This document shows positions 1 through 3,088 of a DNA stretch of 64,000 bases, piece by piece. This DNA comes from Kangiella geojedonensis (GTDB lineage: Bacteria > Pseudomonadota > Gammaproteobacteria > Enterobacterales > Kangiellaceae), in the NCBI RefSeq assembly GCF_000981765.1, contig NZ_CP010975.1, forward strand, positions 2,046,001 through 2,110,000, written 5' to 3'. A program made the position numbers and the translations under genes. Under the pieces are notes generated by a model. That model was not told the origin of the DNA, ran no database searches, and saw only the letters and a list, made by a program, of their open reading frames with translations. The first letter of the stretch is position 1; every line of letters starts with the position of its first letter.

Positions 1-574
1 TGTGCCCACTTTCCGCTTCAAAGGTCATGTTTGCCGTAATGATTCCACGATGAGCCAGCACCGCTTTCGCTTGTGTAGGCTCTGCGACGATAACGCCTTT
101 ATAAGGATGACTTTCCTTCAGGAAGGACTGAACACACACACTATTCCCATGCTCCTCGTCCGACGAAAATAATACAGCATAATCGTCAATGCCTGACTCA
201 ATGCACGCTAACATACAAGCAGCAGCACCTTTTATGTCGCAAGCACCTAAACCAAATAGCTTGCTATCTTTCTCAACCAAATCAAAAGGGTCAGTATCCC
301 ACCCTTCTGTTACAGGAACCGTATCGATATGATAGTTAAACAAGTATTCTGGTTGTCCTTTAGTAACCAAAATATTAATTGAACCATTGCCATAGTCGAT
401 GATTTCAATATCCGCGCCAGGCACATTATTTTCCAAGTAATGAACAATACCTGACTCCATAATTTTTCTTGGCGGATTGGTCGTGTCAAAGCTAACCAGA
501 GCCCTCAAGTGCTTTTTAACCAGCTCCATTGTGGGAGCTTTTTTTGTCTTGAGAAAAATATTCAATAATGACAT
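1..574 (-). CDS. argE: M20 family deacetylase, ArgE type (acetylcitrulline/acetylornithine deacetylase), 3' end outside window
   Basis: Only the N-terminal ~190 codons are in the window; the gene runs off the left edge. The minus-strand translation has the zinc-peptidase M20 pattern: LVSFDTTNPPR near the N-terminus, NYHIDTVPVT (metal-binding His and Asp), GLGACDIKG (bridging Asp), FSSDEEHG (catalytic Glu pair) and AEPTQAKAVLAHRG. The closest remembered pattern is the Xanthomonas enzyme that removes acetate from N-acetylcitrulline, which fits its place directly after argF' and argG. The ATG at 574 overlaps the argG stop as TGATG, implying translational coupling. A second in-frame ATG at 529 would remove 15 residues but lacks a good ribosome-binding site. 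Substrate is inferred from context. Confidence 0.88.
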   Translation of the reverse strand, partial: MSLLNIFLKTKKAPTMELVKKHLRALVSFDTTNPPRKIMESGIVHYLENNVPGADIEIIDYGNGSINILVTKGQPEYLFNYHIDTVPVTEGWDTDPFDLVEKDSKLFGLGACDIKGAAACMLACIESGIDDYAVLFSSDEEHGNSVCVQSFLKESHPYKGVIVAEPTQAKAVLAHRGIITANMTFEAESGH

Positions 575-1782
575 CAGGAACCACCGTTAACTTGCTGCAC
601 GCTCGACCAAGTGGCAGTGCTTTGACCAAATAATTTAATAAAGCCAGTTGCTTCTTCGATACCCCAGTTAGCCTTCTGGGCATATTCAACATCTTTGTTA
701 ATGATCATATGTGGGCTATTAACTGCCACCGCTTCAATGTGTCCAGCTGATATTTTCAACTCCACCGTGCCAGTGACGTTTTGTTGCGAGGACTGTAAAA
801 ACTGCTGAATATTGGTAGTTAGCGGATCGAAGTAAAACCCTTGGTAGACTAAATCGATCCATTTTTTAGCGAGGTTTGGTTTGAAATGGTTTTGCTGCTG
901 TGTCAACACGACTTCTTCCAGCGCCTTATGAGCTGCGAGTAACCCAAATAGAGCAGGTGCTTCGAATACAATCCGACCCTTCAAGCCAATAATCGTATCC
1001 CCTGTATAAATCCCCCGACCAACACCATAGTTTCCCAATGTTTGGTTTAACTGTTGCATGGCTTCTACGCCACTTACTTCATTACCATTGAGCTTTGTCA
1101 AAGCTCCCGCTACAAAATCAAGCGTGATGTAACTGGTATCATGACTAATATCTTCTGGGTTTTTCGTTAAAATGTATGTATTGCTTTCTGGTGCTTGCCA
1201 CTTATCGATCGCACCACCTGAAATGGTCACGCCCAATAAGTTTTCATTAACACTATAACTTTTGTGTACCGCGGAAACTTGATGTCCTTTTTGACTTAAG
1301 TAATCGATCTCATACTGCCTAACGTCTGTGACATTTTTTTGAATATCACGAATCGGTGATAAAACTGTTAAGTTACTTAATGCCTTAATCGATAGGTCGA
1401 AACGGACCTGATCATTGCCCATACCTGTGCAGCCGTGCGCGACGAAACCAGTTCCTAATCTTTTACACAGTTGAACGGCTTCTTTAGCAATTAAATAACG
1501 ATCAGCACACAACACTGGATATTGATCTTGATACAAAGCACTACCCCATATGAGCGGTTTCACAATGGTATCCCACAGCTCTTGCTGCCCGTCGACAGTC
1601 CAATGCTTTTCAGCCCCCAAATTAATAGCGGTTTGCTCAATCTCCTCAATGGTTTTTGTGCTAACACCACCAGTGTTGACAAATAACGTATGAACTTCGA
1701 AGCCTTGATCAATTAAATACGGCACACAAAAGCTGGTATCCAAGCCGCCTGAAAATGCTAAAACTACTTTTTCTTTACTCAC
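574..1782 (-). CDS. argG: Argininosuccinate synthase
   Basis: Joins citrulline and aspartate with ATP to make argininosuccinate, the penultimate step of arginine synthesis in the cytoplasm. The PP-loop AFSGGLDTSF lies near the N-terminus, followed by GCTGMGNDQVRFD and SYSVNENLLG, both typical of ArgG. About 402 residues, the usual length. Two GTG starts are possible: 1791 and 1782. I prefer 1782 because the AAGG overlapping the end of argF' then sits about 8 bases upstream; the 1791 start has no room for one. It is the middle gene of argF'-argG-argE, with a few bases or overlaps between genes. In this pathway its citrulline would come from deacetylation of acetylcitrulline by the downstream argE product. 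Confidence 0.95.
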   Translation of the reverse strand: MSKEKVVLAFSGGLDTSFCVPYLIDQGFEVHTLFVNTGGVSTKTIEEIEQTAINLGAEKHWTVDGQQELWDTIVKPLIWGSALYQDQYPVLCADRYLIAKEAVQLCKRLGTGFVAHGCTGMGNDQVRFDLSIKALSNLTVLSPIRDIQKNVTDVRQYEIDYLSQKGHQVSAVHKSYSVNENLLGVTISGGAIDKWQAPESNTYILTKNPEDISHDTSYITLDFVAGALTKLNGNEVSGVEAMQQLNQTLGNYGVGRGIYTGDTIIGLKGRIVFEAPALFGLLAAHKALEEVVLTQQQNHFKPNLAKKWIDLVYQGFYFDPLTTNIQQFLQSSQQNVTGTVELKISAGHIEAVAVNSPHMIINKDVEYAQKANWGIEEATGFIKLFGQSTATWSSVQQVNGGS

Positions 1783-1792
1783 AGTATTCACC

Positions 1793-2794
1793 TTAAGAAT
1801 GATTAATTAACGTATTCATCATGGATTTCTGTACATGCAGACGATTTTCCGCTTCTTGAATCGCAATACAGTTTTTAGAGTCGACAACACCATCAGTCGC
1901 TTTGACGTTTCTTCTCATGGGCAAGCAGTGACTGAACAAGGCATTGTTAGTCTTCGCCATTTTTGCTTCATCAACCATGAAGTGCTTGTATTGATCACGC
2001 ATAGGCTTTTCTTTTTCCCATTGTCCAAAATAAGGTAACGCGCCCCAGCTCTTGGCATACACCACATCAGCTCCCTCATAGGCACTATCGATATCATGCG
2101 AAACCGTTAGTTGATTACCATGTTGTGAGCTGTAGGTTTGACCAAGATCCATGTAATGCTGATCCAGCAAATAATCCTCATTGGGGCATAATAAAGTGAC
2201 ATCCATGCCAAATTTGCTCGCAATCATGAGAGAGGAGTTAGCCACCGCCGTATTCAATGGTTTAGGGTGATAGGTCCAAGTCAGCACATATTTCTTTCCT
2301 TTCAAATCGCCAAGGTTTTCTTGCAGCGCCATGATGTGCGCCAATTCTTGACACGGGTGGGTAATGGTTTCCATATTAATCACCGGAACCGTTGAGAACT
2401 GAGCCAAGCTTTTAATCAACTTGTCCTGACGATCGTCCTGCCAGTTCTGGAATTTTGGAAAGGCTCTGACGGCAATAATGTCACAGTACGCGGAAAGTAC
2501 TTGAGCCACTTCTTGAATGTGCTCTTCCGCTTCACCATCCATAATGGAGCCAAGCTCAAACTCAATGGGCCAAGCATCTTTTCCTGGCTGAAGCACGATG
2601 GCCTGGCCACCCAGTTGGTGAACACCCAGCTCGAAACTTGTGCGAGTTCGTAATGATGGATTGAAGAATAATAGCGCAACGGATTTATTTTTGAGCAAAG
2701 GCTGAAACTTCTCTTCTTTCAGTTCTTTGGCAAAGTCGATCATCTGCTGCAAATCATTTTGCGACCAATGCTCGGTGGTTAAAAAGTGTTTCAT
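1793..2794 (-). CDS. argF': N-acetylornithine carbamoyltransferase (AOTCase)
   Basis: Transfers carbamoyl from carbamoyl phosphate to N-acetylornithine, giving N-acetylcitrulline. It belongs to the transcarbamylase fold but carries marks of the acetyl-specific branch rather than ordinary ornithine transcarbamylase: FFNPSLRTRTSFELG instead of the STRTR loop, LQPGKDAWPIEFELGS, RAFPKFQNW, NMETITHPCQELAH, and LPMRRNVKATD, with Lys near residue 298 matching the carboxylated lysine of the Xanthomonas enzyme. 333 residues, a normal length. The start at 2794 has AGGA six bases upstream. It is first in the arg operon and lies 50 bases after the attenuator terminator at 2844-2870. The family assignment is from memory of the Xanthomonas protein; I am confident of it. 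Confidence 0.94.
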   Translation of the reverse strand: MKHFLTTEHWSQNDLQQMIDFAKELKEEKFQPLLKNKSVALLFFNPSLRTRTSFELGVHQLGGQAIVLQPGKDAWPIEFELGSIMDGEAEEHIQEVAQVLSAYCDIIAVRAFPKFQNWQDDRQDKLIKSLAQFSTVPVINMETITHPCQELAHIMALQENLGDLKGKKYVLTWTYHPKPLNTAVANSSLMIASKFGMDVTLLCPNEDYLLDQHYMDLGQTYSSQHGNQLTVSHDIDSAYEGADVVYAKSWGALPYFGQWEKEKPMRDQYKHFMVDEAKMAKTNNALFSHCLPMRRNVKATDGVVDSKNCIAIQEAENRLHVQKSMMNTLINHS

Positions 2795-2843
2795 GGCAAT
2801 TCCTGCTAGTCATGCCATCGGGAGGGAAATTTTAGACGTGCAT

Positions 2844-2870
2844 AAAAAAACCCAGCCGATGGCTGGGTTT
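2844..2870 (-). terminator. Attenuator terminator ahead of argF'
   Basis: On the minus strand AAACCCAGCC (2870-2861), loop ATC, GGCTGGGTTT (2857-2848), then a run of Ts to 2844. This is a canonical intrinsic terminator with a 10-bp stem. It sits between the leader peptide (stop at 2891) and the argF' start (2794), so it can only act as an attenuator of the arg operon, not as an end-of-gene terminator. Confidence 0.93.
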
Positions 2871-2936
2871 TAAATTCTGTTGTTTGAAGATTACTTAGAC
2901 AACACGATGCTACTCCCAGCCGGCTTGATTCGGCTG
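2844..2936 (-). promoter_or_regulatory. Arginine attenuator: protector, antiterminator and terminator arms
   Basis: Four arms can be read on the minus strand. Arm 1 CAGCCG (2936-2931) lies in Arg codons 15-17 of the leader. Arm 2 CGGCTGGG (2922-2915) pairs with arm 1 over 6 bp. Arm 3 (2870-2861) holds CCCAGCC, which pairs with GGCTGGG of arm 2 over 7 bp to form an antiterminator. Arm 4 (2857-2848) pairs with arm 3 as the terminator. A ribosome stalled at the first Arg codons would cover arm 1, freeing arm 2 to capture arm 3, so the operon is read when arginyl-tRNA is short. The pairing is seen directly; the mechanism is inferred by analogy with trp, his and leu leaders. Confidence 0.82.
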
Positions 2937-2980
2937 CGACGTCGTAGTTGTACTGTGTTAAAACGATTTACTGTTATCAT
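2891..2980 (-). CDS. Arginine leader peptide (29 aa)
   Basis: A short frame opens with ATG at 2980 and stops with TAA at 2891. The 29-residue product has Arg at codon 6 and at codons 13, 14, 15 and 17 (CGA CGT CGC AGC CGA, that is RRRSR). Five of 29 codons are Arg, four of them within five codons, and those codons overlap the first arm of the attenuator. A stop codon lies in frame five codons upstream, so the start cannot be moved far. The Shine-Dalgarno is weak (AAG about 4-6 bases upstream). The peptide is too small and basic to need a function of its own; its role is inferred to be arginyl-tRNA sensing. Confidence 0.82.
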   Translation of the reverse strand: MITVNRFNTVQLRRRSRIKPAGSSIVLSK

Positions 2981-3059
2981 TCGCTTGGAAACTTAGTTTT
3001 GGTTACTGAGTTGTAATCATCAATGTAAATATCGCGCACCTCTCTAACGGTGCCCAGCA

Positions 3060-3088
3060 AATGTACAACGAAATTTTTTAAGTGTAAA
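3060..3088 (-). promoter_or_regulatory. Predicted sigma-70 promoter of the arg operon
   Basis: On the minus strand TTTACA (3088-3083) and TACATT (3065-3060) are separated by exactly 17 bases, giving a start near 3053, about 75 bases before the leader peptide ATG. A small GCACC/GGTGC hairpin follows in the untranslated leader (about 3034-3055). No palindromic ARG box is obvious around it. Confidence 0.6.

Follow-up and report, generated by a model that had tools for sequence, protein, structure and literature searches.

The window analyzed here, 64,000 nucleotides (nt) of Kangiella geojedonensis DNA (GCF_000981765.1, NZ_CP010975.1, positions 2,046,001-2,110,000), carries on its minus strand a short leader between a predicted promoter and argF', the gene for N-acetylornithine carbamoyltransferase and the first gene of an arginine biosynthesis operon. 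A preliminary description of the window, made from its letters alone, had interpreted this leader as a transcription attenuator that senses arginyl-tRNA; its Arg-rich frame, complementary segments, terminator and coordinates all proved exact on direct reading of the minus strand. The leader consists of the following parts:

3060..3088, minus strand: promoter-like site for the leader transcript, TTTACA-17-TACATT, 9 of 12 consensus matches
2891..2980, minus strand: leader peptide open reading frame (ORF), 29 amino acids, MITVNRFNTVQLRRRSRIKPAGSSIVLSK, containing R-R-R-S-R; read directly, with synonymous codon changes in the Arg run of relatives
2930..2944, minus strand: Arg codon cluster CGA CGT CGC AGC CGA, read directly
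2931..2936, minus strand: segment 1, CAGCCG, the putative 5' arm of the protector, which overlaps the Arg codons; its pairing has the weakest support
2915..2922, minus strand: segment 2, CGGCTGGG, predicted to pair with segment 1 through 2922-2917 (CGGCTG) or with segment 3 through 2921-2915 (GGCTGGG)
2861..2867, minus strand: segment 3, CCCAGCC, the predicted antiterminator partner of segment 2 or the terminator 5' arm
2844..2857, minus strand: segment 4, the terminator 3' arm GGCTGGG (2857-2851) and a run of seven T (2850-2844), with compensatory changes between segments 3 and 4 in relatives
2814..2821, minus strand: candidate fifth segment, CCGATGGC, complementary to GCCATCGG of the terminator, in Kangiella only

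These are the sequence hallmarks of attenuators of the his/trp type, namely, an ORF rich in cognate codons, an intrinsic terminator, a 2:3 antiterminator, and an operon making the sensed amino acid: the product of the downstream operon is arginine, the amino acid whose codons fill the leader ORF. The terminator is separated from the argF' ATG (2794) by 49 nt. The stretch 2985-2840 folds 4.7 standard deviations (sd) below dinucleotide shuffles, with 0 of 200 shuffles equally stable, and comparison of the window with Rfam, T-box and riboswitch families included, produced no match at gathering scores. A promoter-like site with the 17-base spacing given in the preliminary description lies upstream, at 3088-3060; sites of this type number four in the region vs 1.4 in shuffles, and the pattern TTTAC[AT]-N17-TANNNT, formulated after the site in the window had been seen, recurs 5' of the leader in each of 12 Kangiella-type loci. 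A complement of at least 8 nt to the terminator is present in 10 of these 12 loci, with the other groups not above shuffles, and CCGATGGC at 2821-2814 might be a fifth pairing segment.

Conservation of the leader

The first set of loci, drawn from 61 genomes, comprised 23 loci with a close argF' at the level of genus, family and order (L001-L023, our own included). The leader precedes argF' in 22 of the 23. In 21 upstream regions, a short frame containing a cluster of three to five Arg codons precedes a CCCAGC, CCCGGC or CCCGAC terminator; locus L011 is interrupted by a contig end, and its leader lies on another contig (G011:C42, 84.6 bits with the covariance model R1); at L022 (genome G029), there are repeats upstream of argF' and no leader. 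The model R1 (14 pairs, built from 23 leaders) was run on 46 genomes and scored at least 68 bits in all 17 with the acetyl-type enzyme and at most 51.2 bits in the 29 without it, none of which has the leader, a separation to be read with the reservation that 16 of the 17 enzyme-bearing genomes (all except G011) contributed leaders to the model and that the score line was drawn afterwards. No strong copy of the Arg leader was found in these 46 whole genomes elsewhere than before argF'; all genomes also give numerous weak matches, many of them at about 30-37 bits. Relatives lacking the Arg frame or the pairings would have spoken against the attenuator of the preliminary description; the Arg run, the terminator and the 2:3 complementarity are conserved, and the interpretation is not refuted.

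The leader peptides of the Kangiellaceae type share no conserved motif beyond the Arg run. The first three Arg codons of the leaders are CGA, CGC or CGT, partly by construction because the search pattern required CGN, and CGG is absent from these positions. The Arg codon usage of argF' in relatives was set aside as an argument for Kangiella, given that it amounts to just 100 Arg codons in 12 genes.

A more distant scan (one genome per species, best 80 loci, so that the counts are not frequencies in nature) detected the leader in 73 of these 80 loci, of which 61 encode a peptide with the motif MTSRARR, the Xanthomonadales type, and 12 are of the Arg-run (Kangiellaceae) type, nine of the latter repeating the first locus set. 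A class-level search added four MTSRARR-type loci (L031-L034); at 11 class-level loci with weaker carbamoyltransferases (L036-L046), no Arg-run leader was seen by eye. The seven loci without a leader among the best 80 are L066, L079 and L124 (titled Myxococcales), L085 and L088 (Phycisphaerales), L109 (Alphaproteobacteria), and L095, whose upstream DNA is missing; the six others are, by their titles, outside the gammaproteobacteria. In these six, argF' is 67-70% identical to that of the window and comes from metagenome-assembled genomes, reflecting either gene transfer or misbinned contigs. One record, titled Bacillus subtilis SK7B5 (L110), has a Stenotrophomonas-like argF' with the leader and is probably a contaminated assembly.

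Across the Xanthomonadales leaders, the amino acids of MTSRARR are constant while the codons vary: among 63 of the 64 distinct leaders, at loci picked by that very motif, which inflates its constancy, Thr is encoded by ACC (33), ACG (21), ACT (7) and ACA (2), and Ala by GCG (41), GCC (17), GCA (3) and GCT (2). Upstream, A is found in 63 of 63 at two positions and G in 59 of 63. The last Arg codon is CGA in 58 of 63, compared to 1.3% CGA among the 1155 Arg codons of 60 argF' genes; this CGA may be a slowly translated codon or belong to stem 1. A hairpin over GGC ATG ACG TCG CGT GCC was considered as the cause of the peptide conservation and put aside, as CGC variants break the pairing (by eye).

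Alternative pairings

Segment 2 was defined in each of 83 distinct leaders as the stretch most complementary to segment 3, a choice that favors pairing; it matches segment 3 at 6 of 6 positions in 69 and at 5 of 6 in 14. This complementarity is not all due to the picking, because the position of segment 2 is nearly constant and the shuffles compare poorly. Counted from where the Arg run begins, segment 2 starts at a distance of 18, 21, 24 or 27 nt in 23 Kangiellaceae-type leaders; in Xanthomonadales, the distance is 26-39 nt (30 nt in 41 of 60). A 6/6 complement of segment 3 (G-U allowed) between the Arg run and segment 3 is present in 22 of 23 Kangiellaceae-type leaders vs 0.9 (sd 0.9) in shuffles and, by the same criterion, in 47 of 60 Xanthomonadales leaders vs 4.1 (sd 1.9). 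The variants of the two segments occur in matching combinations: GCTGGG occurs with CCCAGC or CCCGGC, GCCGGG with CCCGGC, and GTCGGG or ATCGGG with CCCGAC. For the terminator (3:4), 11 Kangiellaceae-type leaders have four cells changed on both sides, which was matched by 0 of 500 shuffles.

Where Kangiella relatives have a codon inserted (L009 and L012), the 1:2 pairing is restored (CAGCTTTC with GAAGGCTG, by inspection); it is present in the minimum free energy folds of many of 28 leaders, and at equilibrium it is weaker than 2:3 in most of the 83. With a stalled ribosome masked, the predicted probability of 2:3 exceeds 0.5 in 82 of 83 leaders; the mask, whose position was our choice, raises the equilibrium probability of 2:3 by more than 0.1 in 35 leaders and lowers it by that much in none. 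In the complete unmasked RNA, the terminator is predicted at above 0.5 in 73 of 83.

Absence of ArgR from the leader-bearing genomes tested

The preliminary description had suggested a check for argR; in the complete genome of K. geojedonensis, a search for ArgR (PF02863) found none. Among the 40 genomes of the family, six encode ArgR, and in the 37 genomes common to both scans, it is present in 0 of 22 with the enzyme vs 6 of 15 without it. ArgR is likewise missing in all 13 leader-bearing genomes that were reached via the loci (two of these repeat family genomes). A control search identified ArgR in 8 of 14 genomes, E. coli included, and the absences are to be read with the caveat that genomes may be incomplete. 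In the six ArgR-encoding genomes, a distant carbamoyltransferase match, presumably of the ornithine type, lies 1.2-2.3 kb from argR on the same contig, and argC and an argE-like ORF adjoin argR in both such loci that were read. The Phycisphaerales locus L088, with the enzyme and no leader, has an ArgR-like ORF directly upstream (by eye), and its genome encodes ArgR; the Myxococcales-titled L066 lacks the leader and ArgR alike.

Seven genomes of the same genus (G003, G007, G010, G012, G015, G017 and G019) lack both the acetyl-type enzyme and ArgR; these are perhaps arginine auxotrophs.

Relationship to the Xoo5 RNA

The Xanthomonadales leaders overlap a catalogued RNA. The gathering score of RF02242, "Xanthomonadaceae sRNA Xoo5", is reached by L031-L033 and by 13 of 18 further MTSRARR loci (16 of 22 in total); L034 stays below it (31.3 bits), none of five Kangiellaceae-type loci reaches it, and the window gives no match. 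In all 15 loci checked, position 1 of the model lies 2 nt 5' of the leader ATG. Liang et al. (2011) determined the 5' end of the small RNA (sRNA) sRNA-Xoo5 by rapid amplification of cDNA ends (RACE) and its 3' end from clones, giving 124 nt, and their Northern blots had bands of about 130 and 100 nt early and the short band alone later (PMC3039613). The downstream gene is PXO_00353, an N-acetylornithine carbamoyltransferase according to another table (PMC3039613). A term search of the article text at hand returned zero occurrences of "arginine" or "leader" and two of "attenuat", both general (PMC3039613).

Going by the two ends of the model, Xoo5 comprises the Xanthomonadales leader from the beginning almost up to the terminator. 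With the model start taken, by inference, as the RACE end, the Xoo5 5' end suggests that the Xanthomonadales ORF is leaderless.

Proposed mechanism and alternative explanations

The interpretation we favor, with considerable though not complete confidence, is that the leader before argF' acts as a ribosome-mediated transcription attenuator sensing charged arginyl-tRNA, in agreement with the preliminary description; it draws support from the conservation of the elements in relatives and the absence of ArgR. RNA polymerase would start near 3050, and a ribosome would begin the leader peptide. When arginyl-tRNA is low, the ribosome would stall on the Arg codons (2944-2930) and mask segment 1, leaving segment 2 free to pair with segment 3 once the latter is made; the terminator would then form too late, and polymerase would go on to transcribe the six genes of the arginine operon. 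With ample arginyl-tRNA, the ribosome would run past segment 2 to the stop codon beyond, segment 3 would pair with segment 4, and transcription would end in the T run at 2850-2844. The sequences show that these elements are present and conserved, that they co-occur with the enzyme, and that ArgR is absent; from this, we infer that the leader is translated, that ribosomes stall on the Arg codons, that the timing is as described, that transcription terminates in the T run and that the system responds to arginine.

Several observations weigh against this interpretation. Combined with a foreign, different segment 3, segment 2 still pairs at 6 of 6 positions in 2015 of 3600 cases vs 69 of 83 with its own, and the three both-side cells of 2:3 in 11 Kangiellaceae-type leaders are matched by 55 of 500 shuffles; the score for 2:3 is reached by 47 of 500, and covariation by itself does not decide for this pairing. 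Among the pairings of the preliminary description, the 2:3 complementarity and the 3:4 terminator are conserved, whereas the 1:2 protector is mostly not favored over 2:3 and has zero both-side changes in the same 11 leaders. Pairing of 1:2 and 3:4 reaches 96.7% in 18 Rhodanobacteraceae-type leaders, with poor covariation (51 of 500 shuffles match). Without a ribosome, 2:3 is predicted at above 0.5 in 61 of 83 leaders, 1:2 thus being no strong default, and the terminator falls below 0.5 in 10 of the 83 complete unmasked leaders. Masking the ribosome in the complete RNA still leaves the terminator a median equilibrium probability of 0.81 for the Kangiellaceae type and 0.68 for Xanthomonadales; the switch must therefore rest on timing, as it does in known attenuators. 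Most leader ATGs have no clear Shine-Dalgarno sequence (by eye), and the Xanthomonadales peptide also conserves its non-Arg residues T, S and A, a feature not required for simple attenuation. Finally, in 14 loci, the Xoo5 model (length 124) stops short of segment 3 by 8-15 nt and of the T run by 25-34 nt, and the Northern sizes are below the 148-157 nt from the model start to the T run, so that termination there is unsupported by them. Identification of the Xoo5 3' end with the terminator was dropped on account of this 25-34 nt distance; the end could reflect processing, cloning loss or something else. The mismatch lowered our confidence both in attenuation and in the following, broader combination of claims, which we consider unlikely as a whole: that an RNA-only arginine attenuator replaces ArgR in Xanthomonadales and in those Kangiellaceae that have the pathway, that Xoo5 is its 5' part, and that in Xanthomonadales, with a leaderless start, MTSRARR joins in the stalling such that tRNA and nascent chain are read together.

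The constancy of M-T-S-R-A-R-R over varying codons in 63 Xanthomonadales leaders, along with that of the upstream A and G, would also be expected of a nascent-peptide sensor, of which TnaC and SpeFL are examples: arginine or a metabolite akin to it would cause the peptide in the exit tunnel to stall the ribosome, and the Arg residues rather than the charged tRNA would matter. We regard this as improbable. The loci were selected by MTSRARR, making the constancy partly one of construction; the Kangiellaceae-type leaders share no peptide beyond the Arg run; and a stall would free segment 2 and raise expression, the wrong sign for stalling in excess arginine. Even less probable, in our view, is that the leader RNA works chiefly in trans as a small RNA, the class in which Xoo5 is catalogued, with an incidental ORF. 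Rfam does list Xoo5 as an sRNA gene, and Northern blots show a discrete RNA, with growth-phase-dependent sizes and a cloned 3' end before the terminator; but in every locus found, the element lies before argF' (in part by construction, the loci having been found via argF'), and it has no strong copy elsewhere in 46 genomes and conserves its Arg frame with synonymous changes. That an ordinary terminator is accompanied by a chance Arg-rich frame can be practically dismissed: short multi-Arg frames are common by chance in GC-rich DNA, and we met several spurious ones, but conservation already makes this unlikely, and the co-occurrence with the enzyme, the spacing and the complementarity above shuffles speak against it too.

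The downstream operon

The genes within the window that follow the leader are:

1793..2794, minus strand: argF', N-acetylornithine carbamoyltransferase, the first gene of the operon (NF003384, 577.6 bits, cut-off 288)
574..1791, minus strand: argG, argininosuccinate synthase (NF003385, 623.8 bits, cut-off 603)
1..529, minus strand: argE, acetylornithine deacetylase, 5' part, with the likely ATG at 529

The argF'-argG-argE order of the preliminary description is thus confirmed by profiles, and the operon is longer than described: beyond the window (L141), argE is followed by argB(A), an argB-like gene with a second domain, argC and argH (profiles NF006439, NF003387, TIGR01850 and TIGR00838, with NF003387 for argB(A)), so that one leader would govern six genes. 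With argE taken from an internal start, Arg makes up 61 of the 2238 operon residues vs 4.7% in 34 other ORFs of the window, and CGA, CGC and CGT account for 32 of the 61 operon Arg codons vs 501 of 631 in the 34 other ORFs (Fisher p = 9e-6). This low content of Arg and of these codons is in line with the view that genes for biosynthesis avoid whichever codons starvation affects first.

Around the ribosome-binding region and start codon of argF', an inverted repeat ATGGCA/TGCCAT (2818-2793) is present, which by eye is alike in the closest relatives. Before argD (5 genomes) and carA (9 Kangiellaceae and Xanthomonadales genomes), both sited away from the operon, inspection revealed no Arg-run leader adjacent to a terminator. 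Shortly before carA, three Kangiella genomes (L166, G000:C1:203183; L165; L167) have a hairpin-like sequence and seven consecutive T, alike by eye, a possible carA attenuator without an Arg leader.

Comparison with known regulatory systems

If the proposed mechanism is true, it explains how arginine synthesis is controlled without ArgR in Xanthomonadales and Kangiellaceae; a protein repressor and an RNA switch would alternate at one pathway within one family; the orphan sRNA family Xoo5 would gain a likely function; and the regulator would travel with its own operon. ArgR repression, like the Arg leader, would lower arginine synthesis when arginine is plentiful, but it relies on a protein repressor that is missing from the leader-bearing genomes tested.

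The amino acids usually listed as having transcription attenuators are those of the his, trp, leu, ilv, thr and phe systems; to our knowledge, arginine is not on this list. Among the titles and abstracts listed in searches of open-licence PMC papers (subscription papers being outside this scope), none describes an arginine transcription attenuator before arginine biosynthesis genes. The preliminary description had called the leader a new regulatory element. As far as these searches tell, this holds for an arginine attenuator, but the 5' part of the Xanthomonas leader was printed in 2011 as sRNA-Xoo5 (RF02242), and leaders with Arg codons that work by another mechanism are known. Xoo5 itself has in common with the Xanthomonadales leader the 5' part and the position upstream of the acetylornithine carbamoyltransferase gene and differs from the full leader in being catalogued as an sRNA gene and ending before segment 3.

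Ribosome pausing at two consecutive Arg codons of orf34 reports arginine at speF of Salmonella; in contrast to the Arg leader, this involves a Rho site, a ribosome-binding site and decay by RNase G, at a polyamine gene (PMC6386406). In the rbfL leader peptide of S. aureus, rare Arg codons sense arginine limitation, but the response blocks translation of rbf, is of the opposite sign and does not concern arginine synthesis (PMC13009471). A leader peptide at carAB of Pseudomonas aeruginosa and a predicted attenuation in P. syringae, where the authors saw no leader start codon in DC3000, resemble the Arg leader in their position at a gene of arginine and pyrimidine supply, although the gene is a different one (PMC4997734).

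A close parallel is the his attenuator, which, like the Arg leader, combines a short ORF containing a run of cognate codons with a terminator before a biosynthetic operon and differs in the His run and in the operon. A His-run leader built in the same way stands at the his operon of the K. geojedonensis genome itself (L157, G000:C1:1653319-1653425) and was encountered via R1, and the eight second-tier R1 matches that were fetched, from eight genomes, are all His-run leaders before hisG. In L157 and L158-L164, the His-run leader and terminator before hisG are followed by a second His-rich short ORF (SQLHHHHHTLRERRWDEL in L157, by eye), so that his leaders possibly occur in tandem there. The mechanism proposed for the Arg leader is old; as far as searches of the open-licence literature tell, the novelty lies in which amino acid is sensed and at which operon, in the alternation with ArgR and in how Xoo5 is interpreted.
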